Below, one piece after another: positions 2,153 through 54,187 of a DNA stretch of 58,681 nucleotides. How positions within the stretch are numbered: the stretch's first letter is position 1; each line of letters starts with the position of its first letter. The notes below the pieces were generated by a model, which was not told where the DNA came from, did no database searches, and saw nothing but the letters and a program-made list of their open reading frames with translations. Origin of the DNA: a virus. The position numbers and the translations under genes were made by a program. The DNA is taken from the IMG/VR virus record IMGVR_UViG_3300023174_000189, positions 1 to 58,681 of that record. One strand, written 5' to 3'.

Positions 2153-2181
2153 ACTCCCATCTAAGTATCTATATAGGGAGT
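2153..2181 (-). promoter_or_regulatory. SD-sequestering stem before metallopeptidase paralog 2
   Basis: On the minus strand ACTCCC (2181-2176) can pair perfectly with GGGAGT (2158-2153), which contains the SD for the ATG at 2148. The 17-nt loop is AT-rich with TATATAGAT. It belongs to the recurrent pattern described in the findings. Confidence 0.45.
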
Positions 2182-2195
2182 GATATATAAAGATA

Positions 2196-3074
2196 TTACT
2201 TTAAGTTCTTCTTAACTACTTCCATAAACTCATATGCCACTCTCTTTTGAGATGGCTTAACTAATCTTAAAGTAATAAGAGTACACATCTCTGCAAAAAA
2301 TTCAACAGCATCTGTAGCACCATAACTACTAGGACACTCAATCATCTTAATTATCTCTTGCTTACTAAAATTTAAAAAACGACCATATTGATCTTGATAT
2401 ATATAATTACCATCTTTTATTGATTTGAGATAATACTCAGAATTACTTGATCTCTTTACAGTCACCCACCAACGATCACCCTTAAGAATATTAGTTAAAG
2501 GTGAACCTAAACTTGGCATCTTACTATAAACACACTCAGTTTTAGACATAGTTGCTCTCTCAAATAACTCTTGTATATCGTTATTCCTATACCCTTGTTC
2601 TATAAACCTATAATGAAGCCTATGAGATAACTCATGTACTAAATTATCACCCATCTTCTTAACATCTAATAACTTCACCACAACATGATCTCTTGATGGT
2701 GAATAATAAGCACCTGCATAAGATTCTATTTTAGACAAACCATGTTTCTCTATATCATCAGGAGTACCTATATAAATATTACCATATAAGACTTCACTGA
2801 AATTAGATATAGGAGAGTTGTCTATTAATCGCAAAGACCTTTTGAACTCATGAGAGATATCTTGTTTTTGTTCCTTTGTTAGTGGAGAAACAAAATATAA
2901 GGACATACCCTCTATTACTATCCTATTAGAGAATTTAGATTGTAATCTAATACTAGCAAATTCTATAAAAGAAGGGTCTATAAGCATAGCTTCAGATACT
3001 ACATCTTCATTATCACCATATAATTTACCTCTTGATGAAACTAGGTCATAAATCATATCTTTTTTACTTATCAT
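2196..3074 (-). CDS. Putative zinc metallopeptidase (paralog 3)
   Basis: 292 residues from the ATG at 3074, chosen because AAGGTGA lies 8 nt upstream; the frame is open to 3155, but that extension would run through the divergent promoter region. The motif HELSHRLH near residue 145 and EFFAEMCTLITLRLV near the end match the other two copies, and the last residues MEVVKKNLK equal those of paralog 1. The N-terminus has one DUF4116-like unit (DVVSEAMLIDPSFIEFA). It is divergent from the terminase gene, with about 65 bp between the start codons. Confidence 0.65.
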   Translation of the reverse strand: MISKKDMIYDLVSSRGKLYGDNEDVVSEAMLIDPSFIEFASIRLQSKFSNRIVIEGMSLYFVSPLTKEQKQDISHEFKRSLRLIDNSPISNFSEVLYGNIYIGTPDDIEKHGLSKIESYAGAYYSPSRDHVVVKLLDVKKMGDNLVHELSHRLHYRFIEQGYRNNDIQELFERATMSKTECVYSKMPSLGSPLTNILKGDRWWVTVKRSSNSEYYLKSIKDGNYIYQDQYGRFLNFSKQEIIKMIECPSSYGATDAVEFFAEMCTLITLRLVKPSQKRVAYEFMEVVKKNLK

Positions 3075-3082
3075 TTTGTATA

Positions 3083-3134
3083 TCACCTTAAATGTATTAT
3101 ATAGTATATATGTATATATAAATAAAAGAGGTGA
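3083..3134. promoter_or_regulatory. Divergent promoter region of metallopeptidase and terminase genes, with SD-SD stem
   Basis: TCACCT at 3083-3088 is complementary to AGGTGA at 3129-3134; each is part of the Shine-Dalgarno of the gene reading away from it. The AT-only loop holds TATAAATA at 3117-3124, which equals the T4 late-promoter core, and several TATA-like elements on both strands. For a divergent pair this complementarity follows partly from both genes having strong SDs, so the stem alone is weak evidence. Confidence 0.4.
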
Positions 3135-3139
3135 ATTAT

Positions 3140-5986
3140 ATGTCATTTTCATCAATAGCGATATCTGCTAGTGCTAAAGCAGGTATACAATCTAAAGAAG
3201 ATGCTAATATCATTGAATTTGTAGAAGCCCCCTGGGGTCTAGGTATGACTTTATTCCCTGTTCAAAAAGTTATCCTTAAAGCACACTATGGTCTCGAACT
3301 CGATGATACTAATAAATTTAAAATCTCCGATTGGAGAAGAGAGAATTGGAAAGAAGTTACTGAGAAAGAATACCTTAAACATATTTATGACGAAGGTCGG
3401 TGTAATATAGGTGAAGTTATACCAGGTCATGAAAGAAGAGAAATGGTATTGTCGATTGGCAGAAGATCTGGGAAAACTACGATTTCTGCTTGTATCGCAG
3501 CATATGAGACCTATAAACTCATTAAGAAAACAGACCCCCAAGCATATTATGGTTTACCTGCAAGTAATAATATACAGATCATATCTGTCGCTACAGATAA
3601 AGACCAAGCAGGGTTGTTATATAATGAGGTGTCAGGTCACTTTAGAAATTGCTTTGCTTATGAAACAGAAGTAATTACCGATCAAGGTGTTAAGAAGATA
3701 GGAGATATTGCAGGAACAGAGCAAGTTCTCTTAACAAGAGATGGTAGTTGGGTTAAAGCACCTATACGATCTTTCGGTAAACAAAAGCTATATAAACTAA
3801 CCCTTATGAGACAAGGTGTTGTAAAAGAAATTTATACAACAGAAAACCATAGGTGGTATGCTAGAGATGCTAGAGCTAGATATAGGGGTAAAGGATTTAT
3901 AGAATTTACCACCTTAGACCTAAGAAAAGATAAGCATCGGCTTCAATCTGTATTCGGTCGTAGTTATAAGAACCGAATAGATGCTTCACCTTTTGGTATT
4001 GCACATGGATTTACTTATGGTGATGGCAGTACTAATAAAGGCATGAGAAATGCAAATGAAGTCCATTTAATTGGAGAAAAAGATAAAGCATTATTGCCTT
4101 ATTTCTCTATGTGTCCGATTAAAGAAAAAACATATATTAATGGAATTAAAGCATCTGCTTTACCTAATTTCTTTAGGGAACTACCTTCAATCAATGAGAA
4201 TAAAAGTTATTTATTGGGGTGGTTGATGGGTTATTTTGCAGCTGATGGGACTGTAAGTAATGGTCAGATAGATATGACTAGTGTCCATAGAAAGAACATT
4301 GAATTTTTTAGAGATGTTTGTATCTTGTTAGGGATCGGCACTTATGATATTAGGGAAGAAAAGAGAATCTCTAACCTTAATAATAAAGAGTTCACTATGT
4401 ATCGTATGAAGCTCATGCGACAAACATTAGATGAATCTTTCTTTTTAATCGAAAAACACAAGGAATCATTTTTAGGGGCAGGGGCAGAAGATGTAAAAAG
4501 AAAAGTTATTGAATGGGTTGTAAAAGATATTGAAGAAACAGATAGATATGAAGAAGTGTATTGTGCGACTGTGGAAGGGCATGGCAATTTTACTTTAGAA
4601 GGGAATATAGTAACAGGGAATTGTGCCTTCTTTGGGCCCTATACAGCAAACAACACACAATCGTATGCTCGTTTCCAAACACCTAAAGATGTAGAAAGAT
4701 ATGGTAGGTATATAGAAGACCCAACAGCCAAAGCGACCTTAAAGGTCACCTTTAGAAGTTGTGTCGCTAAAGGGCTTCGTGGTGCAGGTAATATTTGCGT
4801 TATCATGGATGAGATCGCCCACTTTACCGAAACAGGTCAAAGTGGTGCTGAAGAAGTCTATAATGCTGTTGTCCCTTCTACTTCTGCTTACTCACCTAAA
4901 GACCCCACTGATCGTAGAATCCCTGTTGGTCCTGTGGAAGGTCGTGTTATCTCTATTTCTTCACCTTTAGGTAAACAAGGTCTATTCTATAAGTTATTTA
5001 ATATCGGTATGCAAGGTGGTAAGGCTTCAAGTAATATGTTATGTGTACAAGCACCTACATGGGAAGTAAACCCCACTGTTCCTGCAACCGAATTTGAAAA
5101 ACACTATTTAAAAAACCCTACAGTATTCTTTACAGAATATGGTGGTGAATTTACAGATAGAACTCGTGGGTGGTTAGAAGATAGTAAAGATTTATATGCT
5201 TGTGTAAATCCTAAGAGAGTAGTTCAAGAAAGAGGTATACCTAGAAAACCATATTTTATGGGTATAGACTTAGCTTTAGTAGGTGACGGCACTGCTGTTG
5301 CTATTGGTCATGTGGAAGATGATAAGATCGTATTAGATAAGATAGATATGATTAAAGCAGGTGTGGGTAAATTTAGAGATAAAGAGAGATTAGATTTTGA
5401 TGATGTAGCAGATTGGGTGTTAGATTATACAAAGAAGTTTTATATAACTGAAGGAATATTCGACCAATGGGCAGGTATACCATTTGAACAAGCCTTAGCT
5501 AAAAGAGGGTTAAGTCAAATGAAAACAGTAAATATGACAAAGCAATTAACAAGTCAGATGTTTCAAAACTTTAAAGATATGATGTGGGATGAGAGATTGG
5601 ACTTGTATGATAAACCTAATCCTGATGTTAATGGGCATGAAGCATATTTAGAAGAATTGTTAGAGTTGCAACAGACAGTGCATAGTAAGAATTTAATCAC
5701 AGTAGAAGCACCGCAAGCAGATGGTAAGCATGACGATATGAGTGATGCTTTAGTGAGAATGATATGGATAGCGAGTCAAAATGTGGGGAGTAAGCAAAAG
5801 ACCATATATACAGCAGGTGGAAGTGGAGGTATGTATAGTCCTAGAAGAGGTGGAGAAATATATTTTGGGAGAACATCAAGTGCCCAGGGGTCATCGGTGG
5901 GAAGAATAGCACCTAAGGTACAAACAAGAGGTGGGAGTTTAAGAGAGAGTATATTAGGTAAGGGGGGATTTGGGAGAGGTAGATAA
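3140..5986 (+). CDS. terL: Terminase large subunit (packaging ATPase/nuclease) with intein
   Basis: The motor that translocates DNA into the prohead and cuts the concatemer. The unspliced product is 948 residues; removing the 324-residue intein leaves 624, normal for TerL. Visible motifs: Walker A SIGRRSGKTT near residue 105, Walker B with catalytic glutamate VIMDEIAH near unspliced residue 553, and the RNase H-like nuclease acids GIDLALVGDGTA (~708), GIFDQWAG (~772) and HDDMSDAL (~863). The start at 3140 follows AGAGGTG; a GTG at 3131 in frame is part of that SD and was rejected. The C-terminal ~50 residues are Gly/Arg/Ser-rich. A small gene and the portal follow in the same direction. Confidence 0.96.
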   Translation: MSFSSIAISASAKAGIQSKEDANIIEFVEAPWGLGMTLFPVQKVILKAHYGLELDDTNKFKISDWRRENWKEVTEKEYLKHIYDEGRCNIGEVIPGHERREMVLSIGRRSGKTTISACIAAYETYKLIKKTDPQAYYGLPASNNIQIISVATDKDQAGLLYNEVSGHFRNCFAYETEVITDQGVKKIGDIAGTEQVLLTRDGSWVKAPIRSFGKQKLYKLTLMRQGVVKEIYTTENHRWYARDARARYRGKGFIEFTTLDLRKDKHRLQSVFGRSYKNRIDASPFGIAHGFTYGDGSTNKGMRNANEVHLIGEKDKALLPYFSMCPIKEKTYINGIKASALPNFFRELPSINENKSYLLGWLMGYFAADGTVSNGQIDMTSVHRKNIEFFRDVCILLGIGTYDIREEKRISNLNNKEFTMYRMKLMRQTLDESFFLIEKHKESFLGAGAEDVKRKVIEWVVKDIEETDRYEEVYCATVEGHGNFTLEGNIVTGNCAFFGPYTANNTQSYARFQTPKDVERYGRYIEDPTAKATLKVTFRSCVAKGLRGAGNICVIMDEIAHFTETGQSGAEEVYNAVVPSTSAYSPKDPTDRRIPVGPVEGRVISISSPLGKQGLFYKLFNIGMQGGKASSNMLCVQAPTWEVNPTVPATEFEKHYLKNPTVFFTEYGGEFTDRTRGWLEDSKDLYACVNPKRVVQERGIPRKPYFMGIDLALVGDGTAVAIGHVEDDKIVLDKIDMIKAGVGKFRDKERLDFDDVADWVLDYTKKFYITEGIFDQWAGIPFEQALAKRGLSQMKTVNMTKQLTSQMFQNFKDMMWDERLDLYDKPNPDVNGHEAYLEELLELQQTVHSKNLITVEAPQADGKHDDMSDALVRMIWIASQNVGSKQKTIYTAGGSGGMYSPRRGGEIYFGRTSSAQGSSVGRIAPKVQTRGGSLRESILGKGGFGRGR
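3650..4621 (+). other. Intein with LAGLIDADG-type endonuclease in TerL
   Basis: In-frame insert of 324 residues. It starts with Cys (CFAYETEVI, typical splicing block A) and ends VTGN followed by Cys+1 of the extein, a canonical Asn/Cys junction. The central part has a LAGLIDADG-like helix LLGWLMGYFAADG and an earlier YGDGST segment, so a homing endonuclease is likely present. The insertion point lies between Walker A and Walker B of the ATPase, after extein GHFRN and before CAFFGPY. Boundaries come from the splice motifs and are accurate if Cys1 and Asn/Cys are read correctly. Confidence 0.9.
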
Positions 5987-6292: not shown

Positions 6293-8150
6293 GATAAATA
6301 CTAAGTCTAAGGCTAAAGTAAAACCTGTAAGAAAACTATCTGCTTCTGAAATGAAGTCTAGGGTTAAAGTAGCTATGTCTACAGCTCCTATGTTAGGTGG
6401 TGGAGGTAATTTTTACTCACCTGAACTTTCTACTGACTTTCTTGAATTACCACAATCACTAGATGAACAAAGGAACTTTTATAGGTTCTTTTATAGAACT
6501 GATCCTTTTGTTGGTCAAGCGATTGACTTACATACTGAATTACCTTTATCTAAAATTCGTTTAGGTATGCCTGTAGCTAAGAATAAAGACTTAGCTAGAA
6601 AAGCATTAAATTTTTGTGAAAAATGGGCTAAGAAAGTAGGTCTCTTACATAGACTTATTGAAATTATCCATGAATATAACTTACTAGGTGAAGTGTTTGT
6701 ATTCTGTGAAGATAATAATCCTGATATGCCTAAAGAAGTAACCCATTATAGGGTTACTAAACAATTAAAGAAAAAGAGTGCTGATGAAAAGAAGCAACCT
6801 AATAAAGAAGAACCTAAAGTAGAAGTTAAAGTAGAAGTTAAAAAAGAAGAAGCACCTAAAGCTAAAGAAAAAAAAGTAGAAATTAGTAAACCTAAAAAAG
6901 AAGAACCTAAACCTACACCTGAAGATGATGATATTAGATTAACTCCTGATGAAGTAGATGAAGAAGAACAAGAAGAATACGAAGAAGTAGAAGAATATTG
7001 GAAAGAAAAAGAAAATGCTCATGAAGAAGCATATGCTTGGTTAAAGAAAAATTATAAAGGTTGGACTGCTGTAAGAATACTCCCACCTGAACAAGTACAT
7101 ATGGAAGTATTCCCTTTTACTGATGAAAAGATTATAGAACTTATTCCTGACAGTAAAACAAGAGATGTAGTAGAAAGAGCAAGTTTAGAAGACCCTAATG
7201 CTTTAAGAGTCGCTCAATCTATGCCCCCTGATGTTGTTGAAGCTATTAGAGAAGGTAGGAACATACCTTTAAATACTGACCCTGAATTAGGTTCTTTTGT
7301 ATTTTATATGGCAAGAAAGAAATCTCAATATGAACCTAGAGGTCATAGTATCCTAGAACGATGTCTTCGTATTCTTATCTTTAGAGATAAATTAAGACAA
7401 GCACAAACATCTATTGCTTCAAGACACATGACACCTATAAGATTAGTATATGCTGAAGATATGGATGCTATGGATGTTGAGTCTTTAAGAGATCAAGTAG
7501 ACTTGGCTTTATCTGATCCTGACTATTCTATTATCTCTAACTTTCAAGTGAATTGGGAAGAGATGGGTGCAGATAGTCGTTTATTAGATCTATCCTCTGA
7601 GTATGATATGACAGATAGACAGATGTATGCAGGTTTAGGTGTAACAGAATCATTATTAAGTGGTGAGAGTGCTTATAGTGGAGATAGAATACACCTTGAA
7701 GTAATTAACACTCGTTATATGTTAATGAGAGAAATATTACAAGAAATGGTGGAAGAGAATATGCTTAAACCTATGTGTAAAAGAATGGGATTTATAGAAG
7801 AAGACGATGATGGTGAAGAGAGAGTAGTTCACCCAACATTAACCTTTACTCGTTTAGGTTTAAGAGATAATCAAGACACCTTTGATGCTTTGTTTAACTT
7901 ATATCAAAAGGGTTCTTTAGATGTAGGTGTGATTTTAGAGTTATTAAATATAGACCCTGAATTAACAAAGGCTAAATTGGCACAAGATGCTTTCACCTTA
8001 AATGATAGTACCTTTAATGAAGTATTGAGAGGTATATATTCGGCTGCAGGTAATAGTTTAGCTGAGAATAGTGATGCTATTGAGAAGATAGCTAAACATT
8101 TAGGATTGAAATATAGTAAACCAGCTGAAGGTGGTGGTGGTAGATTCTAG
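6258..8150 (+). CDS. Portal protein
   Basis: 630 residues. The portal forms the ring at the capsid vertex through which DNA enters. Portal-like features: an N-terminal segment RNFYRFFYRTDPFVGQAI, a central region with RHMTPIRLVYAEDMDAMD, and a C-terminal segment LGVTESLLSGESAYSGDR, typical of large myovirus portals. Position directly after TerL supports the call. Odd: residues ~165-255 are an almost pure Lys/Glu/Pro stretch interrupting the fold, probably a surface loop. SD GAGG precedes the start inside the upstream gene. The 3' end overlaps a convergent gene by 4 bp. Confidence 0.85.
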   Translation: MTEEEKPKTVSKINTKSKAKVKPVRKLSASEMKSRVKVAMSTAPMLGGGGNFYSPELSTDFLELPQSLDEQRNFYRFFYRTDPFVGQAIDLHTELPLSKIRLGMPVAKNKDLARKALNFCEKWAKKVGLLHRLIEIIHEYNLLGEVFVFCEDNNPDMPKEVTHYRVTKQLKKKSADEKKQPNKEEPKVEVKVEVKKEEAPKAKEKKVEISKPKKEEPKPTPEDDDIRLTPDEVDEEEQEEYEEVEEYWKEKENAHEEAYAWLKKNYKGWTAVRILPPEQVHMEVFPFTDEKIIELIPDSKTRDVVERASLEDPNALRVAQSMPPDVVEAIREGRNIPLNTDPELGSFVFYMARKKSQYEPRGHSILERCLRILIFRDKLRQAQTSIASRHMTPIRLVYAEDMDAMDVESLRDQVDLALSDPDYSIISNFQVNWEEMGADSRLLDLSSEYDMTDRQMYAGLGVTESLLSGESAYSGDRIHLEVINTRYMLMREILQEMVEENMLKPMCKRMGFIEEDDDGEERVVHPTLTFTRLGLRDNQDTFDALFNLYQKGSLDVGVILELLNIDPELTKAKLAQDAFTLNDSTFNEVLRGIYSAAGNSLAENSDAIEKIAKHLGLKYSKPAEGGGGRF

Positions 8151-8749
8151 TAATTTCGGATTTTAGACATATTTAATTTAGAATAGGCATTTAAAGTATT
8201 TTGAAAATCATTAAATACTTCTAAGGGTTCATATAAGTCTTTGGGGTCGAAATCAAAAAAGATATTGGAATATTCATCTTCTGTTAATAACATATCATAA
8301 TTTTGTCTTAATTTTTGAGCAACATCTTCTCGGTATATATCAAAATCAAAATCTTTATAGAAAAGAACATTTAATTGATAGAGGGGAGAAAACCAAATAC
8401 CCCTACAATAAATAGTAACATATAAATCTCTCTTAACAAGAGTAGCAAAAAGAAAGTCATCATGAGATAAAGGATATACTTCTGGAGGAGGACTATCTGT
8501 CAAACTAAAACCTTTAGAAAGTAAATAGTCGCCAATCATTTCAAAAACTAATTGAGTAGCATTATAAGAGACAATAGATTCTGGTGTTATTTTTCTTTTA
8601 AATAACCCTAAAAACCCACCACCACCAATTCTTTTAGAAATTTCAAGAATGTCTTCATCAAACTCTTTCTTTTGTTGTGGAGGTAGAGGTATAGAAGGAT
8701 TTTCAACATAAGCCTTAAAGTCAATGAGATACTTTTTAATATCCTTCAT
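8147..8749 (-). CDS. Hypothetical protein
   Basis: 200 residues, SD AAGGA before the ATG at 8749. No signal peptide or membrane segment, and no family recognised. A Gly/Lys stretch (RIGGGGFLGLFKRK) near residue 40 and aromatic-rich beta-like segments are the only landmarks. It is an opposite-strand insert between portal and the following head-region genes, convergent with portal and divergent from the next gene. Confidence 0.7.
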   Translation of the reverse strand: MKDIKKYLIDFKAYVENPSIPLPPQQKKEFDEDILEISKRIGGGGFLGLFKRKITPESIVSYNATQLVFEMIGDYLLSKGFSLTDSPPPEVYPLSHDDFLFATLVKRDLYVTIYCRGIWFSPLYQLNVLFYKDFDFDIYREDVAQKLRQNYDMLLTEDEYSNIFFDFDPKDLYEPLEVFNDFQNTLNAYSKLNMSKIRNY

Positions 8750-9487: not shown

Positions 9488-9643
9488 CTTATACTCCTAT
9501 ACAAAATAAGTGTTATATATTATACTTATACAATTACACCTCACCAAAAAATAGAGATTTATATGTTAAACATGATTATTTGTACAATACTATTTTCTTT
9601 ACTCATTTACATACACATAAAACTTTAAAGTATTTATATCTCA

Positions 9644-9666
9644 CCTTATATTTAACTAGTATAAGG
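9644..9666 (+). promoter_or_regulatory. SD-sequestering stem
   Basis: CCTTATA (9644-9650) and TATAAGG (9660-9666) form a perfect 7-bp stem with a 9-nt loop. The right arm contains the AAGG of the SD for the ATG at 9676. Translation would need melting of the stem or a transcript starting inside it. Confidence 0.5.
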
Positions 9667-9675: not shown

Positions 9676-10344
9676 ATGAGAAGAAGATATGCTAATTTAA
9701 ACCATCAAGAATCTGAAAAAGACCTTGATCTATTACCTATTATGAATCCTCTCTTTAATATGAGAGAAATTTGTAAACAAATGGTTCTTTTAGAAGACCA
9801 CCTAAATAATATTCGTAAAAGATGTCATGATTGTATTAGAAAACATTTTCTTACGATTGAAGCCTTCTTTGAAGAAGCGATTTCTCTTGATAAAGATTTA
9901 AAGTACCTTGATATTCTTGAAGGACAAGCTCAAAATGTAAGAAACCTTCAAGGTGTTTGGTTAAGATTTAAAGACGATAAAGATAGTAAAGGTTATTATT
10001 TAATCTCTCAAAAGCTAAGAGAGATTAGAAAAGAACTAACACCTTATTGTTTTGATGTAGTAGAAATGGATAATAGCCCCTTTAATAAGAAGTTTGCTTG
10101 TTCTTTAGCGACCTGTCCGCATAGAGTAGCGAAATTGTATTTAGCTACTAAATCTATGGCTCAAAAAGAAGATGAAGAAGTTTCATCTATGGTAAAACCC
10201 CACCCTAAAAAGAAACCACCTAGACAAGATTTAAAAAAAACTAGAATATCTGTTAATGATAATGACCTAGAAGATTTATCAGGTGATGGAGATAGAGATC
10301 TATCTTTACATAATACTAAGGTAGGATCAAGGTATCGTTTTTAA
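9676..10344 (+). CDS. Conserved-looking phage protein with CxxC motif, unknown function
   Basis: 222 residues from the ATG at 9676, chosen because AAGGAATA precedes it; the open frame extends to 9580 but without an SD. Residues ~45-80 hold RKRCHDCIRKHFLTIEAFF, with a CxxC pair in an amphipathic helix, and a second Cys-rich spot occurs at KKFACSLATCPHR. Four cysteines could bind a metal or form disulfides. The tail is basic (PHPKKKPPRQD). Placement in the head module suggests a structural or assembly role, unproven. Confidence 0.75.
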   Translation: MRRRYANLNHQESEKDLDLLPIMNPLFNMREICKQMVLLEDHLNNIRKRCHDCIRKHFLTIEAFFEEAISLDKDLKYLDILEGQAQNVRNLQGVWLRFKDDKDSKGYYLISQKLREIRKELTPYCFDVVEMDNSPFNKKFACSLATCPHRVAKLYLATKSMAQKEDEEVSSMVKPHPKKKPPRQDLKKTRISVNDNDLEDLSGDGDRDLSLHNTKVGSRYRF

Positions 10345-10348
10345 TAGT

Positions 10349-10389
10349 TTATAATCCCTATCTTATAAATAGTCTTAAAGGGATCATAA
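10349..10389 (+). promoter_or_regulatory. Promoter-like TATAAATA inside an SD-sequestering stem
   Basis: TTATaATCCCT (10349-10359) pairs with AGGGATcATAA (10379-10389): 10 base pairs and one A-C mismatch. The SD AAAGGGA of the ATG at 10392 lies in the right arm. TATAAATA at 10364-10371, matching the T4 late-promoter core, lies in the loop. A transcript started there would lack the left arm and leave the SD open. Confidence 0.55.
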
Positions 10390-12841: not shown

Positions 12842-12864
12842 CACCCCTAGAGGAGATTCTAATC

Positions 12865-41786: not shown

Positions 41787-41812
41787 ACTCCTATATATAA
41801 CTAAATAGGAGT
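41787..41812 (+). promoter_or_regulatory. SD-sequestering stem
   Basis: ACTCCTAT (41787-41794) pairs perfectly with ATAGGAGT (41805-41812), 10-nt loop. The right arm is the SD of the ATG at 41819. The surrounding DNA TATATATAACTAAATA is AT-rich and could contain the start site. Confidence 0.6.
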
Positions 41813-45304: not shown

Positions 45305-48300
45305 ATGTTAAACAATTATCTTAAAGACTTGCAAACAAGACAAGCACAAAATGGCTCAGAATACTCTTATAGAGCAGACTTAAGACAAATCCTAAAAGGT
45401 TTAAGTATCACTGACGAACCTAAAGGTAAGAAAAAAGATAAAGTCGATATGGAAGTTTTTACTCCCGAAGGTCTTGTCTCTTTCTATATTGAAACTAAAG
45501 ACTTAGGCGAAGACCTCAGCCATAAGAAACATCAAGATCAATTCAATAGATACAAGTCCGCATACAAAAAACTCGTTATCACAAATTTTCTCGACTTTGA
45601 ATTTTATCGTGATGGTGTCTTACTAGGTAAATGCACTCTTGCCGATCTTAAATCATTCACAGGCAGTCAAGCTGACTTCGATCAATTCAATAACTTTATT
45701 GATGATTTTAAGAATGATTGTATCCAATTCACTAATCCTATCTTACTCGCTAAAAAACTCGCTGAGAAAACTAAATTCCTAAAGAATGAGATTTTTACAA
45801 CTCTTGAAAAAGATGATGCTGAAATTGCTTTAGGCAGTAAAAAGAATTTTAAACTCGTTGCCTATCGTAATGAATTTAAAAAAATGCTCCTCAATGATAT
45901 TGATAACGATCAATTCGCTGATCTCTATGCTCAAACAATCACCTATGGTTTATTTGCTAGTAGATACTATTCTTTTCAAAAAGATTCTAAAGCTACTTTT
46001 AAACGATCCGATGCCTCTGATCTTATCCCTAATACAAATCCTTTATTAAAGCAATTCTTTGATTCTATTAGTAGAGATAGTAAATCTTCTTCTTTAGGTA
46101 AAAATATCACTATTCATTTAGATGGAATTACTACTATCCTAGCTAATGCGGACATGACCCAAATTATTCAAAATTTGAAATTAGCTAACAATGATATTGT
46201 TATTCACTTCTATGAAACCTTCCTAGAACATTATGACCCAGCATTAAGGGCAAGTATGGGTGTATGGTATACTCCTGTTGAAGTAGTGGATTATATTGTT
46301 AAAGGTGTAGATAGTATTCTCAAGGACAAGTTTTCTATCAAAGATGGTATTTCATCTAGAGAAACACAAGACTTCTCATTTATTAGAAAAACTAAAGTTA
46401 AAGGTGGTGAGAAGACTGAGGAGGTAACTAAAAAGGGGGTACATAAAGTTCAAATCTTAGACCCAGCTACAGGCACAGGTAATTTCTTAAATTCCACTAT
46501 CAATTACATTAAGTCTAATTTTAAACACCCTACCTTATGGAAGGAGTATGTTAATAATCACTTGATCCCTAGATTAAATGGTTTTGAGTTAATGATGCCT
46601 TCTTATGTTATGGCACACATGAAGATGTATGAATTGTTAAAAGACTCTTTAGATGATAATCTATCTAATAGGTTTAATGTATATTTAACAAACACCTTAA
46701 ATGGTGGTGTTGTCTTAGAAGAAGAGAATGTTTTATCTGTGAGTGATTTAATACATCAGTTAAATGAAGAAGCATTAGGAGCTAATAGAGTAAGACAAGA
46801 ACAACCTGTGATGGTGATCATGGGCAACCCACCTTATAATAGTGCAAGTAAGAATCAAGGTGAGTTTATTACTGATCTTATGGAAGACTATCAAGATGTG
46901 AGTAAAAATACAGGAATTACTTTAAATGATGACTATATTAAATTTATTAGATATGGACAACACCTCATCGACCAAAATAATAGTGGGGTTTTAGCTTATA
47001 TTTCTAATAATAGCTTCCTTAAAGGAATCTCTATGGGGAAAATGAGAAAATCACTATTGAAGACTTTTGATGAAATTTATGTCCTTAATTTATATGGTCG
47101 CCCTATTGATGATAATATTTTTAAAAGTATCAAACAACAAGTTTGTATCACTTTCTTTGTTAAGACAAACAAGAAAGAACAAAACGAATTAGGTAAAGTC
47201 TTTTACTTTGAAATTAAAGGAGATAGACAACCTAAGTTGGACTATCTTGAAAAAAACACGGTGAATAATGATTTTAAAGAAATTGCTTTGATTGAACCTG
47301 AATATTACTTCATCCCACAAGACACTAGTATCCTTGAAGTATACAATAAAGACAGCTTCCGTTTAGATTCTATTTTCAAGTTTAAATCTAATGGTGTTTT
47401 AACAGGTTGTGATAGCTTACTAATAGATACTGATTTAGGGAGATTAGAAAATAAATTAAAAAATTATTTTGCTACAAATAAAAAAAAGGGAGTTTCTTCA
47501 ACAGATGACGGTCACTTTAAAAAAGTAAACTATAGAAATTTTGATACAAGACACTATTTTGATAGTGCTTTATCGAGTGCTAGAAAAGAAGAATTGGTCA
47601 AACATTCATTAGCATCAAAACAAATCTTCTTATCATACAAATCTTATTGTCGTGACAAGTTTGACTTCAAACATATCTTATTAACAAATAGGACTCCAGA
47701 CTATAACTTTTTGGGGGCATCGGCAGGATCAATCCATTGCTCTCCTCTCTATCAATACCACGAAGGAAACACTGTTTTAGGCACAGAACCATACCAAACC
47801 TCTAACTTCACTCAAGACTTCCTAGACCAAATCTCCCTCAAAATCGGTAAACTCTTTAATGATAACCCCACCGATGATACTACTTTCTCTTCCCTCGATG
47901 CTATGGATTACATCTATGGCTACCTTAATGATAAATCCTACACCACTACCTATAACCAATTCCTTAAATCTAACTACCCCAAAGTCCCTTTCCCCACTGA
48001 CCTTAACCACTTTGAAACCTATAGATTAAAAGGTGAAACCCTTAGAACTATCCACCTCGATGACTCTACAATAGACCCCACCTCTAACTTCACCGCTAAA
48101 AGCAACACTATCTCTAAGGTCTCTTTCGACCCCACTGATAATAAACTCTACTTTAACAAGACTAGCTACTTCGATAATATCACTAATGATATGTGGAATT
48201 TCAAAATAGGTGCTAGTCAACCACTTAAAAACTGGCTCGAAGCTAGAAAAGATGATGACTTAACTGAGAGTAGTGTTGATGAATTTCTAAATGTTATCTT

Positions 48301-48322
48301 TAAAGTAAGAAACTCTATCTAG
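45305..48322 (+). CDS. Type IIG-like restriction-modification enzyme (nuclease + N6-adenine methyltransferase)
   Basis: 1005 residues. N-terminal nuclease: Asp48 and IETKDL (Glu63-x-Lys65) form a PD-(D/E)xK site. Methyltransferase: ILDPATGTGNFL motif I near residue 386 and VIMGNPPYNSA (catalytic NPPY) near 510, as in gamma-class adenine methyltransferases. Residues ~680-1000 probably form the target-recognition domain. It resembles the nuclease and methyltransferase parts of type ISP enzymes, but lacks a helicase. No separate methylase gene is nearby, so self-modification is expected. A phage could use it against competing DNA. From ~47700 on, the coding strand becomes very C-rich. Confidence 0.85.
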   Translation: MLNNYLKDLQTRQAQNGSEYSYRADLRQILKGLSITDEPKGKKKDKVDMEVFTPEGLVSFYIETKDLGEDLSHKKHQDQFNRYKSAYKKLVITNFLDFEFYRDGVLLGKCTLADLKSFTGSQADFDQFNNFIDDFKNDCIQFTNPILLAKKLAEKTKFLKNEIFTTLEKDDAEIALGSKKNFKLVAYRNEFKKMLLNDIDNDQFADLYAQTITYGLFASRYYSFQKDSKATFKRSDASDLIPNTNPLLKQFFDSISRDSKSSSLGKNITIHLDGITTILANADMTQIIQNLKLANNDIVIHFYETFLEHYDPALRASMGVWYTPVEVVDYIVKGVDSILKDKFSIKDGISSRETQDFSFIRKTKVKGGEKTEEVTKKGVHKVQILDPATGTGNFLNSTINYIKSNFKHPTLWKEYVNNHLIPRLNGFELMMPSYVMAHMKMYELLKDSLDDNLSNRFNVYLTNTLNGGVVLEEENVLSVSDLIHQLNEEALGANRVRQEQPVMVIMGNPPYNSASKNQGEFITDLMEDYQDVSKNTGITLNDDYIKFIRYGQHLIDQNNSGVLAYISNNSFLKGISMGKMRKSLLKTFDEIYVLNLYGRPIDDNIFKSIKQQVCITFFVKTNKKEQNELGKVFYFEIKGDRQPKLDYLEKNTVNNDFKEIALIEPEYYFIPQDTSILEVYNKDSFRLDSIFKFKSNGVLTGCDSLLIDTDLGRLENKLKNYFATNKKKGVSSTDDGHFKKVNYRNFDTRHYFDSALSSARKEELVKHSLASKQIFLSYKSYCRDKFDFKHILLTNRTPDYNFLGASAGSIHCSPLYQYHEGNTVLGTEPYQTSNFTQDFLDQISLKIGKLFNDNPTDDTTFSSLDAMDYIYGYLNDKSYTTTYNQFLKSNYPKVPFPTDLNHFETYRLKGETLRTIHLDDSTIDPTSNFTAKSNTISKVSFDPTDNKLYFNKTSYFDNITNDMWNFKIGASQPLKNWLEARKDDDLTESSVDEFLNVIFKVRNSI

Positions 48323-48517
48323 AGAACTTATCTATATCTCCTTGTTTTTATACAAACCATCGCCAAAATCTATAAAATCAACTTTGAAGATAAACACCTT
48401 CACCACCTCTTCCAAAAAACTGCCTCTTCCCTACCATCAGAAGATGCCACTATCAAAGACCTAGACTTCTCCGTCCTTAATCAAACATGGGACTTTATCT
48501 CTAATACCTATTATTAA
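48323..48517 (+). pseudogene. 3' remnant of a paralog of the 783-residue protein
   Basis: Directly after the TAG stop of the restriction gene the same frame continues open to TAA at 48515-48517, without any ATG, GTG or TTG start. It encodes IQTIAKI, a diverged middle and IKDLDFSVLNQTWDFISN, matching the C-terminus of the 41819 protein (VQTIARI ... IREVDFAILDQVWDGIN). I read it as the tail of a lost third paralog, left when the cargo arrived. It overlaps the 3' end of the opposite gene by 17 bp. Confidence 0.7.
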
Positions 48518-49808
48518 GCTCTATCCTAAATCCTACCTTCTCATCCCCCATTCCTATATCTTCCACTATATTTATCTTTACTATTTCACCCACCATCCCC
48601 TTTATCTCCCTCCCCACTGACTCCCCCCGACCCCGACTACGACACCTTATCTCTAATACTACCTCCCACTTCCCACTACGACTAAAATCCACCACCATAT
48701 CCACCACCCTCTTCAATACCACATACGACTTCCCCACTATTACTTCATCTCCTCCCTTTACAAAATATATATCATCTACATCCCCACCTATAACCTCATC
48801 TTCACACCCATCATAATCCCTATACCCATTCATCACCTCCTTCTCTCCTACACACCTATCATATATGTCCATCACACCATCCCCATCATTATCCAAATCA
48901 GGACACCCATCCTCATCTAAATACCCATCCTTATCTTCACTATCCCCCTCACACCTATCCACACTATCCATCACCCCATCTCCATCCTTATCTCTCTTTA
49001 TAACCACCCCACCCTCTACTCCCACCACACCCCTATAACTTACACTCCCTATCCCACCTGTAAACCCTTGACCCACCCCCACTATTAACCACCCATCATA
49101 CCTAAACCCTATTATCCCATCTATAACATCCCCTAAACCCCCACTATATTTTACCTCCCCCTTTATATCCCACACCCCCATAACCTTATATACAACCCCC
49201 AACCCCACTATCATACCATTACCAAAATAATTAGTCTTCACCTCACCCTTATTTACTACACCTCCACCATCCTTATATCCTATATTTATAACCCACCTCA
49301 CATCCTTTAACTTCCATATACTATCTCCACTTATTAACACCCTATATATATTACTATATACTCCACTATCTGTAGGTACACTTATAACCACTGATAATCC
49401 TATATCCACTCCTAATATACTATACACCCTCAACTTAGGCATCACCCTTATATTATCTCCACCACTCTTATAACTTATAACCCCACCTCTATCACCTGTT
49501 ATATAATTATATCCCACACTCCCACCTATACTTAACCTCCCTCCTATTAATCCATATGTCCCACCTATGTTAACCTGATTGTAATTCTTTATTAAGGCTA
49601 TATTACTATAACTGTCCACTAAAGCATCTCGACTATAATTCATACTCACATTATAATCTAACTCACCCCCACCTAGAACTTTACCACTATCTAATGAATA
49701 TATCTTATACCTGTCTACACTCATCTGACTCGTCTGTATATCCTGTCCATATATATTACTACACCATACTACTATACTTATAAGTATAACTACTAGACTT
49801 CTTATCAT
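48501..49808 (-). CDS. OmpA-like outer-membrane protein with TSP3 calcium repeats
   Basis: 435 residues. Signal peptide MIRSLVVILISIVVWCSNIYG, cleavage before QDIQ. Residues ~22-275 alternate polar and hydrophobic residues as in an outer-membrane beta-barrel. Residues ~283-345 contain two thrombospondin-type-3 calcium repeats (DKDGDGVMDSVDRC, DNDGDGVMDIYDRC). The last ~85 residues resemble a shortened OmpA domain but lack a clear peptidoglycan-binding signature (IRCRSRGRGESVGRE). SD AGGAG, not covered by a stem, unlike many genes here. The sense strand almost lacks C. Probably of host origin and possibly expressed to alter the host surface; inferred. Confidence 0.8.
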   Translation of the reverse strand: MIRSLVVILISIVVWCSNIYGQDIQTSQMSVDRYKIYSLDSGKVLGGGELDYNVSMNYSRDALVDSYSNIALIKNYNQVNIGGTYGLIGGRLSIGGSVGYNYITGDRGGVISYKSGGDNIRVMPKLRVYSILGVDIGLSVVISVPTDSGVYSNIYRVLISGDSIWKLKDVRWVINIGYKDGGGVVNKGEVKTNYFGNGMIVGLGVVYKVMGVWDIKGEVKYSGGLGDVIDGIIGFRYDGWLIVGVGQGFTGGIGSVSYRGVVGVEGGVVIKRDKDGDGVMDSVDRCEGDSEDKDGYLDEDGCPDLDNDGDGVMDIYDRCVGEKEVMNGYRDYDGCEDEVIGGDVDDIYFVKGGDEVIVGKSYVVLKRVVDMVVDFSRSGKWEVVLEIRCRSRGRGESVGREIKGMVGEIVKINIVEDIGMGDEKVGFRIELNNRY

Positions 49809-50015
49809 TTTATCACTTCTCCTATATGTTCTTATATAATCCTATAACCCTATAATCTTTCACCTTATAAATAATTAACCCCCTTTCATTTCCACCCCAA
49901 AAATTTTCACCCAAAACTAATTTTCACTTTCACTTTTTACAACTCTCAAAAAAACAAGCCCCCCCTTATATAACCCCCCCCCTCTGGAGAGATACCCTTA
50001 TAAATCCCCACCCTA

Positions 50016-50073
50016 TATAAACACCACCCTATACATATATATATCTTATATCTTATAAACACCACCCTATACA
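50016..50073. repeat. Direct repeat of 20 bp, two copies
   Basis: TATAAACACCACCCTATACA occurs identically at 50016-50035 and 50054-50073 (offset 38 bp). A shorter related piece (CCCCACCCTATA) lies just to the left. Confidence 0.85.
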
Positions 50074-50110
50074 CGCAGATGTGTAGGTGGGGGGATATAA
50101 GATATATATA
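50036..50110. repeat. Long two-part inverted repeat (cruciform-capable)
   Basis: Outer arms of 17 bp are perfect: 50036-50052 against 50094-50110 (TATATATATCTTATATC and its complement). Inside, CCACC (50062-50066) and TACAC (50070-50074) pair with GTGTA (50081-50085) and GGTGG (50086-50090) across a 6-nt loop, with one 3-nt bulge. Confidence 0.85.
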
Positions 50111-50246
50111 AACCCTAGTTAAACTATAGTTTCATTTTCGGAATGTCATTTTCATTACGGACTCAATATGGCTTTTTTGACCCCTGACCCCCCTAAGTCC
50201 TACTTTTTAATGCAGTTCTACAGAGGTTGGGGTAAACCTTGTGAAA

Positions 50247-50696
50247 TTAGGACATTTTATCTATATAGTCTTGTATATCCTCTATATACTCATCTATGTC
50301 TTTATCCCCACTATACCATAAAAGACGAATAAAGCTCAGTACTAGATTACAGATGCTTATCTTAGGATTAAGGCTTAACTCAAATCTCTTTTTTTGATTT
50401 GCCATAACATCTACAATTAACTCAATAGCCGATAAAGTCATATTATTGTCGTAAAATCTCATAGAGGACATGATTTGATTTTTTGTAGGACTTGTTATTC
50501 CGAATTGGTCGTTTTTCATATATGTGCAAATAGACAGATCTTTCTTAAAAAAGAAATTGATCTCATGACTAGATTCTTCTCTTTTAAAACCCAAATCAAC
50601 AAAAAGATCAATCAAAATCTCATTTAATTCTTCAAATGTTTTAGGCTCGTTGCCTACATATTTTATCTCACGATTTTCTTTAATATAATTCGCCAT
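50247..50696 (-). CDS. Small paralogous protein, copy A
   Basis: 149 residues from the ATG at 50696 (SD AAGAGGTGG); a GTG at 50708 is part of that SD. Shares with the next two genes the layout PKTFEELNEILIDLFVDLGF near the N-terminus and NLVLSFIRLLWYS near the C-terminus, and is the most diverged copy. No signal peptide or catalytic motif. Confidence 0.7.
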   Translation of the reverse strand: MANYIKENREIKYVGNEPKTFEELNEILIDLFVDLGFKREESSHEINFFFKKDLSICTYMKNDQFGITSPTKNQIMSSMRFYDNNMTLSAIELIVDVMANQKKRFELSLNPKISICNLVLSFIRLLWYSGDKDIDEYIEDIQDYIDKMS

Positions 50697-50748
50697 CTTA
50701 CTCGCCACCTCTTAAGCATATACTCTCTCTCTAGGCATAGAGAATTTA

Positions 50749-51198
50749 TTAAATACTATATGCACTCTCTAAACTTTTAAACTGAGCATATAACTCCTTG
50801 TGGTCATATTGAAGTTCCCATAATACACGAATATGATCTAAAAGAAAATTTAACAAGCTAATGCTGTCAGGTAGTTTCAATTCAATTAGACAGTCTATGT
50901 CTTTAGAACTTTTTTTCAAGTGTATGCCACTATGTAATCGTAGGGCTATGTTTCTTAAGTTCTCAGGCTTGAGATAAAAAGTAGACCATACTCCTGTATC
51001 TTCCATTACCACAAGAACTTTATGTCCTATCTTATTGGCAAAGCGAACTTGAATATCGGATTTAATAAATTTGTCTTTGTCCTCAGTAAATTTAAGTTCA
51101 ATTAAAGTTTCTTTCAATATAGAAAAAAACTCATCTATTGTAGTAGGCTCATGCCCTTGATAAATGCTTATACCCTTAGGGGTTTTATAAATAGCCAT
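50749..51198 (-). CDS. Small paralogous protein, copy B
   Basis: 149 residues. Starts MAIYKTPKGISIYQG, like copy C (MTIYKTPKGINIYQG), and shares LLNFLLDHIRVLWE near the C-terminus. Alpha/beta composition, no known motif. A 5-bp hairpin covers its SD. The three copies form a tandem array upstream of the OmpA-like gene on the same strand. Confidence 0.75.
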   Translation of the reverse strand: MAIYKTPKGISIYQGHEPTTIDEFFSILKETLIELKFTEDKDKFIKSDIQVRFANKIGHKVLVVMEDTGVWSTFYLKPENLRNIALRLHSGIHLKKSSKDIDCLIELKLPDSISLLNFLLDHIRVLWELQYDHKELYAQFKSLESAYSI

Positions 51199-51205
51199 GT
51201 TAAAA

Positions 51206-51219
51206 TCCTATGGGTAGGA
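51206..51219 (-). promoter_or_regulatory. Tight hairpin over the SD of copy B
   Basis: TCCTA (51206-51210) and TAGGA (51215-51219) pair perfectly with a 4-nt loop. The minus-strand AGGA facing the start at 51198 is the SD. Nearly the same hairpin precedes copy C. Confidence 0.5.
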
Positions 51220-51633
51220 ACTTTGTAGTTGTTTAAATTGTTGAGATAGACTAGGAAGATCATTTTTATGTTGCCATGCTACTCGAATAAAATCTAAAAG
51301 AAAATTCAATAGACTGATATGATCAGGAATGTTTATGTCAATTATTGAGTCTATGTGATTAATGCTAGTGTTTAATCTTATCGCTAGGTTTCTTAAATTC
51401 CCTGCTCTCAGATAAAAGGTTGCCGTTATGAGGTCATTATAGATATTGATAATAACCTTATTTGCTATAATGAGAGAAACTTTAATGTCGCCTTTTACAT
51501 ATATGTCTGTGGGATTCTCAGTAAATTTAAGTTCTATGAGAGATTGTTTCAATATCGTAAAAAACTCATTTATCGTTTTAGGCTCTGTGCCTTGATAAAT
51601 GTTTATACCTTTAGGAGTTTTATAAATTGTCAT
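51208..51633 (-). CDS. Small paralogous protein, copy C
   Basis: 141 residues, closest to copy B: TINEFFTILKQSLIELKFTE and LLNFLLDFIRVAWQ are the conserved blocks. Its stop lies 10 bp before the start of copy B. Function unknown. Tandem duplication followed by divergence is the simplest history. Confidence 0.75.
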   Translation of the reverse strand: MTIYKTPKGINIYQGTEPKTINEFFTILKQSLIELKFTENPTDIYVKGDIKVSLIIANKVIINIYNDLITATFYLRAGNLRNLAIRLNTSINHIDSIIDINIPDHISLLNFLLDFIRVAWQHKNDLPSLSQQFKQLQSSYP

Positions 51634-51639
51634 GTTGAT

Positions 51640-51655
51640 GTCCTATGTCTAGGAC
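51640..51655 (-). promoter_or_regulatory. Tight hairpin over the SD of copy C
   Basis: GTCCTA (51640-51645) and TAGGAC (51650-51655) pair perfectly around TGTC. The SD AGGAC is in the start-proximal arm, 6 nt before the start codon. Upstream TATAATATAA could be the -10, so every transcript would carry the hairpin. Confidence 0.55.
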
Positions 51656-51668
51656 TTATATTATATTA

Positions 51669-52316
51669 TTAACCCATCAATTCAATGCTGTGTTTAAAAT
51701 GCTCATAGGCAAGTTCTTTTACAGCTTGTGCATACACTTGAATTTCATATTGTGAAGCTTTATCAATTCTCAACTGAATAAAGTGCATTAAGCCTTGTAG
51801 TGATGTTGTCCATATACATTCACTATAAGAGGATAAAGGCAAAACGATACGAGCTTGTTCTCTACATACACCAAGTTGTAATAGTTTCTCATAGTTTTCA
51901 AAAGCAAGATCATAAACTTCATTCATAAGTTGAGTAGCTTGTTCTTGGTTTTCAATAGCTCCATGAGAAGATTGTTTATTCTTATCATCTTGATAACGCC
52001 AGGTATCAGGTTTAAATTCGCCATGTCTTAATTCAGTGTATCGACCACTTTGTTCATTCCATGCACAGCCTATTTGATGTTTCATCCACTGCCTAAGCAC
52101 AAAGATCGGTGCTCTTACTCTAAAAGAAATAAAGCAGTGTCTGAATGGGCTTGTATGTTCATGTTGCCATAAGTAGTTTAAGAGCTTTAAATCTCTGTCA
52201 GTAAAATCTTTTGATTCTTTGCCATAAGAAACACGAGCGACATTAACAACTCTAAGGTCATCACCCATACTATCTATAACTTCAACGAATCCGTCATTAA
52301 ACACATCTTTTCTCAT
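51669..52316 (-). CDS. thyX: Flavin-dependent thymidylate synthase ThyX
   Basis: 215 residues. Makes dTMP from dUMP using FAD and methylene-tetrahydrofolate. Characteristic blocks: LWQHEHTSPFRHCFISF near residue 50, then FVLRQWMKHQIGCAWNEQSG, the ThyX signature region, followed by RYTEL; near the C-terminus REQARIVLPLSSYSE. Odd: the canonical RHR of the signature reads KHQ here. SD AAGGGAAG. First gene of a leftward group with the three small paralogs; works with the ribonucleotide reductase to feed phage DNA synthesis. Confidence 0.92.
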   Translation of the reverse strand: MRKDVFNDGFVEVIDSMGDDLRVVNVARVSYGKESKDFTDRDLKLLNYLWQHEHTSPFRHCFISFRVRAPIFVLRQWMKHQIGCAWNEQSGRYTELRHGEFKPDTWRYQDDKNKQSSHGAIENQEQATQLMNEVYDLAFENYEKLLQLGVCREQARIVLPLSSYSECIWTTSLQGLMHFIQLRIDKASQYEIQVYAQAVKELAYEHFKHSIELMG

Positions 52317-52399
52317 TTATATCTTCCCTTGTTTTTGAGATAAATCCTATCTATACTATACATACAATTAAAACGGATTTTAAGATAAATGAGAATAGC

Positions 52400-52660
52400 C
52401 TATATAAAGACATATGCCCACCTATAAATTCTATTCTATAAGACTATATCTATAACCACCTATAAATTCTATCTGTCTATAAAGACTACCTATAAGACTA
52501 TATAGCCACCTATAAATTCTATCTGTCTATAAATTCTATATACTCATCTATAAGACCATATGTCTATATAAGACTATATATGTCTATAAGACTATATAAT
52601 CACCTATAAGAGTATATAATCACTTATAAGAGTATATAAGACTAGATAGATAAGATTAGA
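52400..52660. repeat. Iteron-like AT-rich tandem repeats
   Basis: About 260 bp of degenerate repeats built from CCACCTATAAATTCTAT (near 52418, 52456, 52506) and CTATAAGACTATAT units (five or more from 52436 to 52650). A 28-bp stretch is identical at 52456-52483 and 52506-52533 (offset 50). No coding frame. Looks like an iteron or protein-binding array, possibly linked to replication. Confidence 0.7.
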
Positions 52661-53579
52661 GATAAGACAATAAATAGGCAATACAATCCCTATCTACTCT
52701 TAAAGTAGATTTTATATGTATCCATAGATAATATGATATTCCTATCTATACTTATCTATTTGTATCTTAAAGTTCTATTTTTAAGATACATCTACAATCT
52801 TTTGAAAGTAGATTTACTCGTTAAGAAGTTTAGTCTTAATCTTAGTGTTATTGCTATTACTAGTATAAGTAGTATTATTAGTAGTATAAGTATTAGAATG
52901 AGTAGTAGTATTTATTAAAAGATAAATCTTTTTCTAAATATATATATATAAATATACATATAGTAAATCTTAAAGAGAACATAATATTCTCTAAGATCAA
53001 TAGAGTTTATCTTATTGAGAGATTTATAGGTGATGGTAGTAGTAGTGGTAGTGACTAATGGTATTTAACTTAAAGATATTTATTTCAGTATCTACCTTTA
53101 GAGAGAAGATTAAGAATTTAATCTTATGAAGTTCTAAAGTGTTAAATAAGTCTTTATATCATTTAAAGATACTAGACCATAAACTAATCTCTTTATGGGA
53201 GAGATTACATCCATGCACGAGATTAAATAAAATTCAGATAACACCTGCTATGTTAAAAGGTTTACACCTTATAAGTAGATTGATAAACTTTAATATCTTC
53301 AAATTCTTAAAGTCTATACTAAAGAAACTGATCTTATAGCCTTGACTATAAGATCAGTTTCTAAAACCCCTTATCCACTCTTAAATCTCATTAAGATATT
53401 TAAGTAGCTTTTATTTGTTGTGCATTTTACCTTATGTGGGAATAGAAGGCAAGTAAAAACATTAATATTTTATTATCTCCTAGATCGCTCTATTATTCGT
53501 TTTAAAGAGCTTTTAAGGGTCAAGGGGTATCTTCATATACCCTGAGGTATTTAAGTGCTTAAAAACAGCCTTTTTGGTT
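52661..53579 (+). other. Hairpin-dense non-coding segment, candidate large structured RNA
   Basis: About 900 bp with no convincing gene but many perfect short inverted repeats in series: 52692-52710 (7 bp), 52761-52790 (11 bp), 52790-52813 (6), 52821-52839 (5), 52917-52932 (7), 52974-52992 (6), 53106-53125 (8), 53185-53207 (8), 53257-53270 (5), 53323-53362 (17), 53380-53404 (7), 53525-53542 (6). Some AT-rich palindromes arise by chance, but the density and the long ones suggest structured RNA or an origin. Two short frames inside have no SD. Confidence 0.45.
53323..53362. other. Perfect 17-bp hairpin
   Basis: AGAAACTGATCTTATAG (53323-53339), 6-nt loop CCTTGA, exact complement at 53346-53362. 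No strong U-run on either side, so a terminator is not certain. It could close a large RNA or be a protein-binding site. Confidence 0.8.
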
Positions 53580-53819
53580 GATTTAGGTAAATTTAGGTCT
53601 TGGGGGGAGAAGTTTAGGTAAATGAAGAAAGATTTAGGTGAAACAAGAGAGAAATTAGGTGGGAGGGGGGACAAGTTAGGTGATGGTGAAGAGAATTTAG
53701 GTGAGGGGAGGAAATATTTAGGTCTTGGTGGGAGAAATTTAGGTGGTGAGGAGAAAGATTTAGGTGGTGGGGAGAATAATTTAGGTGAAAGGGAGAATAA
53801 TTTAGGTTTAAAAAGAGAG
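53580..53819 (+). repeat. G-rich 21-nt repeat array (TTTAGGTG motif)
   Basis: Nine 21-nt units from 53631 to 53819, each beginning AATTTAGGTG or similar and continuing with G/A-rich sequence, with looser copies from 53580. C is almost absent from the + strand (none in 53761-53820), and G-runs up to six occur. Confidence 0.85.
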
Positions 53820-53837
53820 ATTTTTTGTATGATATAA
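53622..53837 (+). CDS. Possible small heptad-repeat protein encoded by the 21-nt array
   Basis: 71 residues. Because the DNA period is 21 nt, the product repeats every seven residues around Leu-Gly (KDLGETR, EKLGGRG, NLGEGRK, NNLGERE). GGAGAAG lies 9 nt before the ATG, an acceptable SD. It may equally be a non-coding DNA element whose frame is open by chance: no other start, no known family. Highly charged, with no membrane segment. Confidence 0.3.
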   Translation: MKKDLGETREKLGGRGDKLGDGEENLGEGRKYLGLGGRNLGGEEKDLGGGENNLGERENNLGLKREIFCMI

Positions 53838-53864
53838 TGTCATTTTAAGAAAAGGATTATGTTT

Positions 53865-54146
53865 ATGAGTGATCGAGAAAAATTTAAACAGATTACAAGT
53901 GAGCTAGGAGAACTACTAGCGATGAAAAATGAAGCATACGGCAGTGCTTTTGAAAAGACAACAGAGATACTTAAACTGCTCTATCCTAATGGGATTACTG
54001 TCGAGCAGTATAAAGATGTTCATGTGATTGTTCGTATGCTAGACAAGTTAAGTCGTATAGCAAGAGATAATGACCCAATGGGCGAAGATCCCTTTAAAGA
54101 CATAGCAGGGTATGCCATACTTGCACAAGTCATGAGATCAAAATAG
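53865..54146 (+). CDS. Nmad1-like (DUF1599) nucleotide-modification-associated protein
   Basis: 93 residues from the ATG at 53865 (AAAGGA at 8 nt; another ATG lies at 53859). Features of the Nmad1/DUF1599 fold: ELLAMKNEAYGSAFEKT, then VHVIVRMLDKLSRI with a conserved Arg/Asp-Lys pattern, and KDIAGYAILAQV at the end. The family is named from genome contexts with modified-nucleotide pathways, and its biochemical role is not established. TATAAT at 53833-53838 is a plausible -10. ThyX and the decarboxylase-like gene would fit thymidine or base modification, but no glycosyl- or hydroxymethyl-transferase is visible. Confidence 0.6.
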   Translation: MSDREKFKQITSELGELLAMKNEAYGSAFEKTTEILKLLYPNGITVEQYKDVHVIVRMLDKLSRIARDNDPMGEDPFKDIAGYAILAQVMRSK

Positions 54147-54167
54147 TTTCTTAAAGTCTTTATATTT

Positions 54168-54187
54168 TCTCTTTTAGAAAAAAGAGA
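54168..54187 (+). promoter_or_regulatory. Hairpin just before the 1360-residue gene
   Basis: TCTCTTTT (54168-54175) pairs perfectly with AAAAGAGA (54180-54187), 4-nt loop. The purine arm is the only SD-like sequence (GAGAGA) before the ATG at 54199. Confidence 0.4.

Follow-up and report, generated by a model that had tools for sequence, protein, structure and literature searches.

The window analysed here (the whole stretch of DNA under study) is a piece of a virus record, 58.7 kb long, and carried genes for a large terminase, a portal, a protease, ribonucleotide reductase (RNR) and a major head protein (17257-18135, phrog_2522), on account of which it was assigned to a huge tailed phage. Its relatives in IMG/VR reached up to 376 kb, and its terminase displayed a 69% match in a deposited 485-kb genome from an uncultured phage. 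The major head protein was 87-98% identical across relatives, neighbouring genes mostly 50-70%. The terminase and both RNR genes (3140-5986, 27939-30779 and 30993-32936) displayed extra domains, and the terminase insert (approximately residues 170-500) resembled sequence within the RNR genes of further phages, which suggests shared inteins. A strong GC skew of -0.435 was found at 48001-52000, around the minus-strand genes 48501-52316, and adjoined an ORF-poor region (52317-53621).

Twelve hairpins whose 3' arm contains the Shine-Dalgarno sequence (SD) had been listed in the initial annotation. All could be read in the sequence (Table 1); when each was compared with 1000 SD-preserving dinucleotide shuffles, seven of the 12 were individually significant (p <= 0.013), three were marginal and two were not significant. 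Site 10349 had no stem by the SD definition used, because its stem covers AGGGA and the matched SD is AAAGG. Searches for related loci with genes 41819 and 54199 gave no matches. A hairpin of another kind (CTACTTCCCTTGAAAACAGGGAGTA-like, ~16585-16607) was observed upstream of gene 16625-17242; it left the SD uncovered, its loop was near-invariant across relatives and it was conserved in orthologs L048, L164, L162, L214 and L011.

Table 1. Promoter-like elements and SD-covering stems of the window, with examples of T4 genes displaying strong SD-covering stems at GTTTAC early-type promoters (AF158101; 'early-type stem'). Anti-SD distances are counted from the last base of TTTATA.
Feature	Positions	Strand	Downstream gene	p	Remarks
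TTTATA 2186-2191 and stem ACTCCC/GGGAGT	2153-2191	-	1180-2148	0.08	marginal; anti-SD at +6
TTTATA, promoter-like element	9633-9638	+	9676-10344		anti-SD begins at +6
Hairpin CCTTATATT/AGTATAAGG	9644-9666	+	9676-10344	0.008
TTTATA 10348-10353, then ATCCCT 10354-10359/AGGGAT 10379-10384	10348-10384	+	10392-12290		6 bp; not significant
Hairpin CTCCTTGT/ACAAGGAG	18231-18263	+	18271-19200, LAGLIDADG homing endonuclease (PF03161)	0.003
TTTATA 21527-21532 and 13-bp SD-covering hairpin	21527-21571	+	21575-21940	0.002
Hairpin GTCCTT/AAGGAC	25833-25869	-	Pyr_excise (PF03013)	0.013	true start taken as ~25822, a Met close to the beginning of the Pfam domain
10-bp hairpin, 4-nt loop	26353-26376	+	26380-26973, DNA_pol3_delta2-like (PF13177)	0.003	SD AAAGGAG
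TTTATA 41775-41780 and hairpin ACTCCTAT/ATAGGAGT	41775-41812	+	41819-44170	0.005	anti-SD at +8
TTTATC 45244-45249 and stem CTTTGTG/CACAAAG	45244-45297	+	45305-48322, Type ISP-like methyltransferase/restriction-modification protein (PF18135; PF02384, N6_Mtase)	0.10	marginal
5-bp stem TCCTA/TAGGA	51206-51219	-	50749-51198	0.16	not significant
Hairpin GTCCTA-gaca-TAGGAC	51640-51655	-	51208-51633	0.004	no TTTATA nearby
TTTATA 54159-54164 and stem TTTCTCTTTT/AAAAGAGAGA	54159-54189	+	54199-58281	0.07	marginal; ribosome-binding site GAGAG, a non-canonical SD
T4 early-type stem			alc, 135772-136278
T4 early-type stem			modB, 12507-13130
T4 early-type stem			regB, 62279-62740
T4 early-type stem			denV, 64939-65355
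T4 early-type stem			motB.2, 7661-8161
T4 early-type stem			alt.-3, 122742-123032

The analysed lineage set comprised eight records, namely the window and seven relatives (G002-G007 and G011) taken as 20-kb pieces; G004 and G007 were held out, being fetched once the method was fixed. Phages T4, phiKZ, T5, SPO1, RB49, KVP40, G and S-PM2, whole or in part, served as yardsticks. SD pairing probability over the whole upstream region gave a weak signal in the window (30.3 vs 25.8 ± 1.5), and since this measure saturates in A+T-rich DNA it was replaced by the best single ungapped stem with a 3' arm overlapping the SD by 4 nt or more. Genes were taken from a home-made caller, and the control for the set consisted of 20 shuffles in which SD and spacer were kept.

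Among genes preceded by a gap of at least 30 nt, 111 stems of -8 kcal/mol or lower were observed in the window and its seven relatives where about 12 were expected from shuffles, related genomes in these counts not being independent of each other. The excess was found in the window (5 vs 0.1), G002 (10 vs 0.8), G003 (10 vs 0.3), G005 (18 vs 2.3), G006 (15 vs 2.7) and G011 (15 vs 1.9) as well as in the held-out G004 (31 vs 3.2) and G007 (7 vs 1.0). At -6 kcal/mol or lower the window displayed seven SD-covering stems against 0.9 in shuffles, and every relative tested displayed an excess too. Genes with gaps shorter than 30 nt displayed no clear stem excess in any record, and pairing of the SD with downstream sequence gave no comparable excess over shuffles. 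Chimeras made by swapping promoter segments within a genome retained few of the stems: 47 real stems of -6 or lower stood against 10.9, 32 of -9 or lower against 3.2 and, in the held-out G004, 27 against 7.7. The shuffle comparison, named in the initial annotation as a refuting test, did not refute it, the stems being several-fold to tens of times more frequent than in shuffles, restricted to genes with a gap and gene-specific.

Hairpins were also encountered at orthologous genes. Orthologs of gene 9676 displayed significant SD-covering stems in eight of 19 distinct upstream regions, with unrelated sequences (e.g. ACCTCTTTATCTGTG, a stem of 15 bp, in L214, and one of 19 bp in L016); those of genes 20669 and 21575 did so in five out of five and four out of eight cases, respectively. 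Control families yielded none out of 15 (major head protein), one out of 14 (gene 16625) and one out of 18 (gene 12347). A stem was also called in four orthologs of homing endonuclease 18271 (L046, L047, L164 and L053), and in one of the four it was individually significant. Pairing that is kept under changing sequence is what selection on pairing predicts.

SD hairpins were displayed by approximately 10-20% of the genes with an intergenic gap. They preceded genes for tail fibres and homing endonucleases, and also for a PolA-type polymerase, helicases, a clamp loader, the RNR small subunit and a ThyX-type thymidylate synthase. Such replication and nucleotide genes left the proposal that the device serves late genes only without support, and a reading of the hairpin genes as 'late' by function was rejected in view of their mixed classes.

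A promoter-like motif, TTnaTA-N5-TTTATA, was reached from a seed, separately in G005, G006 and G011, by ZOOPS expectation-maximisation; its distance to the start codon was about 40 nt. Some of the genes from which it was learned were hairpin genes, and in A+T-rich DNA it stands out poorly from the background. It was associated with hairpins in G005 (p = 0.04), G006 (p = 7e-5) and G011 (p = 0.013), as well as in G004, which had no part in motif learning (p = 3e-5); in the held-out G007 the hairpins replicated and the association was absent (p = 0.74). Only seven of the 39 hairpin genes from A+T-rich genomes, the nearest kin of the window, exceeded the motif threshold. At four of nine hairpin genes in the window and at 16 of 23 in G006, against 0.5 expected in each, a TTTAT[AG] had its last base 1-13 nt ahead of the anti-SD segment. 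The initial annotation had placed a promoter element of TATAAT type between the arms; as stated this was not borne out, TATAAAT-like words being cheap in the A+T-rich window and the enriched TTTATA preceding the left arm.

The enriched element was not the T4 late promoter TATAAATA; seeds of this type, of sigma-70 type and of early type gave no stable hairpin-linked motif. The early seed yielded a separate AAGTGTTATA class in G002/G003, and genes with this motif in A+T-rich genomes carried hairpins in two out of 77 cases vs 46 out of 243 (p = 1.7e-4). The second promoter-like motif of G002/G003, read there as TCaCAAGTGTTATA (L148-L173), looked early, preceded RNR, ligase and methyltransferase genes and was almost never accompanied by hairpins. 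A literature search on promoter motifs in huge phages returned nothing useful. Pfam Sigma70_r2 scored over the cut-off in a protein of G008 and G009 and weakly in G004 and G006 (phrog_1740 in the latter). No match to a multi-subunit RNA polymerase beta' was found in the lineage; a search for single-subunit RNA polymerases was uninformative, as it gave no match in the lineage and none in the control genomes. Given a sigma-like protein in some relatives (for instance at L222:1336-1959) and no beta' match, it is plausible that the host polymerase works together with a factor of the phage, on the T4 model.

Aligned on TTTATA, SD pairing was enriched at about -10 to -3 and at +1 to +13, and depleted from +14 on. 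The former zone had been considered a second arm position; this was withdrawn, as swap chimeras attributed it mostly to composition, and it was the +1 to +13 pairing and the strong stems that proved gene-specific. Purine content jumped at +14/+15 after TTTATA, as is characteristic of a start site, independently of the distance to the ATG, and this switch recurred in the held-out records (at +14 in G004, with a peak at +15 in G007). The same plot made on T4 late promoters peaked at +6, which is their known start-site distance. Transcription would most simply start at +14/+15 after TTTATA, inside the loop, as judged from composition. With the SD complement at +1 to +13 and the purine flip at +14, the arm probably lies between the promoter element and the transcript start; the order would most simply be a promoter element upstream of or overlapping the left arm, then the arm, then a start in the loop. 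The anti-SD arm would then probably lie wholly upstream of the start and be absent from the local mRNA. For a bacterial -10 element, TTTATA would be unusually far upstream of such a start. Were the start at +7 instead, the arm portion from +7 to +13 would stay in the local mRNA. Under an assumed +7 start, shuffling only the upstream part freed the SD (0.278 to 0.347, sd 0.010) and shuffling the leader had little effect; even with this conventional start, the segment upstream of it alone adds SD pairing beyond shuffles.

Leader hairpins of T4 genes e, soc, 49 and I-TevI sequester the SD in read-through transcripts, and a promoter just upstream of these genes gives transcripts lacking the 5' arm; translation-initiation hairpins also occur at I-TevII, I-TevIII, segB and mobE of phage Aeh1 (PMC3014915, PMC2988022). 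T4 served as positive control and displayed 15 stems of -6 or lower against 1.3 in shuffles, with e, 49, I-TevI and I-TevII recovered. The present lineage shares with T4 the SD in the 3' arm, a predicted 5' UTR of similar length and use at a homing endonuclease (window site 18231), but differs in its putative promoter (TTnaTA-N5-TTTATA rather than TATAAATA), in an arm placed between the element and the inferred start and in the occurrence of hairpins at genes of all classes. The enriched element being what it is, the device would work like that of T4 without being built on the T4 promoter. Strong SD-covering stems were also observed in T4 at genes with GTTTAC early-type promoters (L223, L225, L226 and L227; Table 1), the left arm following the -35-like element, which suggests that T4 employs the device at more genes, early ones included, than usually cited.

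Smaller stem excesses were displayed by KVP40 and phage G, and T5 and SPO1 displayed only few strong stems. In T5 (L267, L268) and KVP40 (L240), isolated SD stems enclosed a sigma-70-like TATAAT in their loop, which is the geometry expected in the initial annotation. No clear excess of SD stems was found among gap genes of phiKZ, RB49 and S-PM2. Jumbo phages of phiKZ type resemble the present lineage in their large genomes, but lack the hairpin excess and encode their own RNA polymerases.

The hairpins are likely to be promoter-coupled read-through insulators, following the logic of T4 e, soc, 49 and I-TevI with another promoter. The features seen directly, namely stems in numbers above those of shuffles and chimeras, their restriction to gaps, their retention at orthologs, the motif and the arm position, are best accounted for in this way. 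The motif would be a promoter, and genes possessing one of their own would carry an anti-SD segment between promoter element and transcription start. RNA polymerase reading through from an upstream gene would copy both arms, and the resulting hairpin would bury the SD and leave the gene untranslated. RNA started locally, at about +14/+15 after TTTATA, would begin in the would-be loop without the 5' arm, and its short, A-rich, unpaired leader would be translated. As the first arm stands at the gene's own promoter, probably only messages begun there are translated. Of the general insulator that had been suggested, the insulating role stands as best explanation of the stem excess; its generality was reduced, hairpins being common but not universal.

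Hairpins within a gene's own mRNA could alternatively act as a switch (responding to temperature or a RegA-like repressor protein) or as a 5'-end stabiliser, and some of the arm would indeed remain in the transcript if synthesis began about 7 nt after TTTATA, the spacing of a standard -10 element. This is considered unlikely, since SD pairing in the local leader starting at +7 did not exceed that of shuffles (0.514 vs 0.532), the SD complement was depleted from +14 on, no stem or loop sequence was common across hairpin genes, unlike a protein or ligand site, and an Rfam search of the window at the gathering threshold matched no riboswitch or leader family. It is very improbable that the inverted repeats serve a promoter regulator as DNA operators, with SD overlap as a by-product: they do overlap the promoter-like motif, but neither different genes nor orthologs share their stem sequences, the SD is always covered by one arm, and internal mismatches were richer in G-U (86 out of 249) than in shuffles (22%), though G-U differed only weakly from A-C.

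SD hairpins might also be mimicked by terminators belonging to the upstream gene or by SDs that pair across a divergent junction, and 17 of the 111 stems were located at divergent junctions. Yet 93 had their upstream neighbour on the same strand, and in the listed cases inspection revealed a purine-rich spacer and ATG after the 3' arm, and no U run there or on the reverse strand, which makes this origin just as improbable as operators. The least credible source of the stems is chance, arising in A+T-rich sequence where a purine SD meets promoter spacers rich in pyrimidines. Several listed sites were individually weak and the zone at about -10 to -3 was mostly compositional, but for the whole set chance was refuted by the excess over shuffles and chimeras, which included mid-G+C genomes and longest stems of 15-20 bp, and identical analysis of phiKZ, RB49 and S-PM2 gave no such excess among gap genes.

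Insulation from read-through, the preferred reading, has a parallel in the fold-back inhibition of IS10 and IS50, in which transposase mRNA read in from outside forms a hairpin that hides the ribosome-binding site. The likeness would lie in a hairpin forming in externally initiated transcripts alone; the differences are that a single mobile-element gene is concerned, that the arm is part of a terminal repeat and that no homology is known. A literature search on IS elements returned nothing useful.

The device is known from T4; what would be new is its occurrence in this lineage and with this promoter, and the genome-wide statistical evidence. Whether insulation forms a general, rapidly re-evolved control layer of this huge-phage lineage, reached independently of T4 and based on promoters of a non-T4 class in which the stretch from element to start also serves as anti-SD, at some 10-20% of promoter-region genes of any timing class, is an evenly balanced question. 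Gene-dense phage genomes with leaky termination must keep successive expression programmes apart, and the T4 solution, described for a handful of genes, would here be a common design rule, open to statistical testing, in a lineage unrelated to T4. Each hairpin yields the prediction of a 5' end about 14-15 nt after TTTATA, in the loop, and the hairpins would allow insulated genes of uncultured phages to be located from sequence alone, together with their promoters and start sites.
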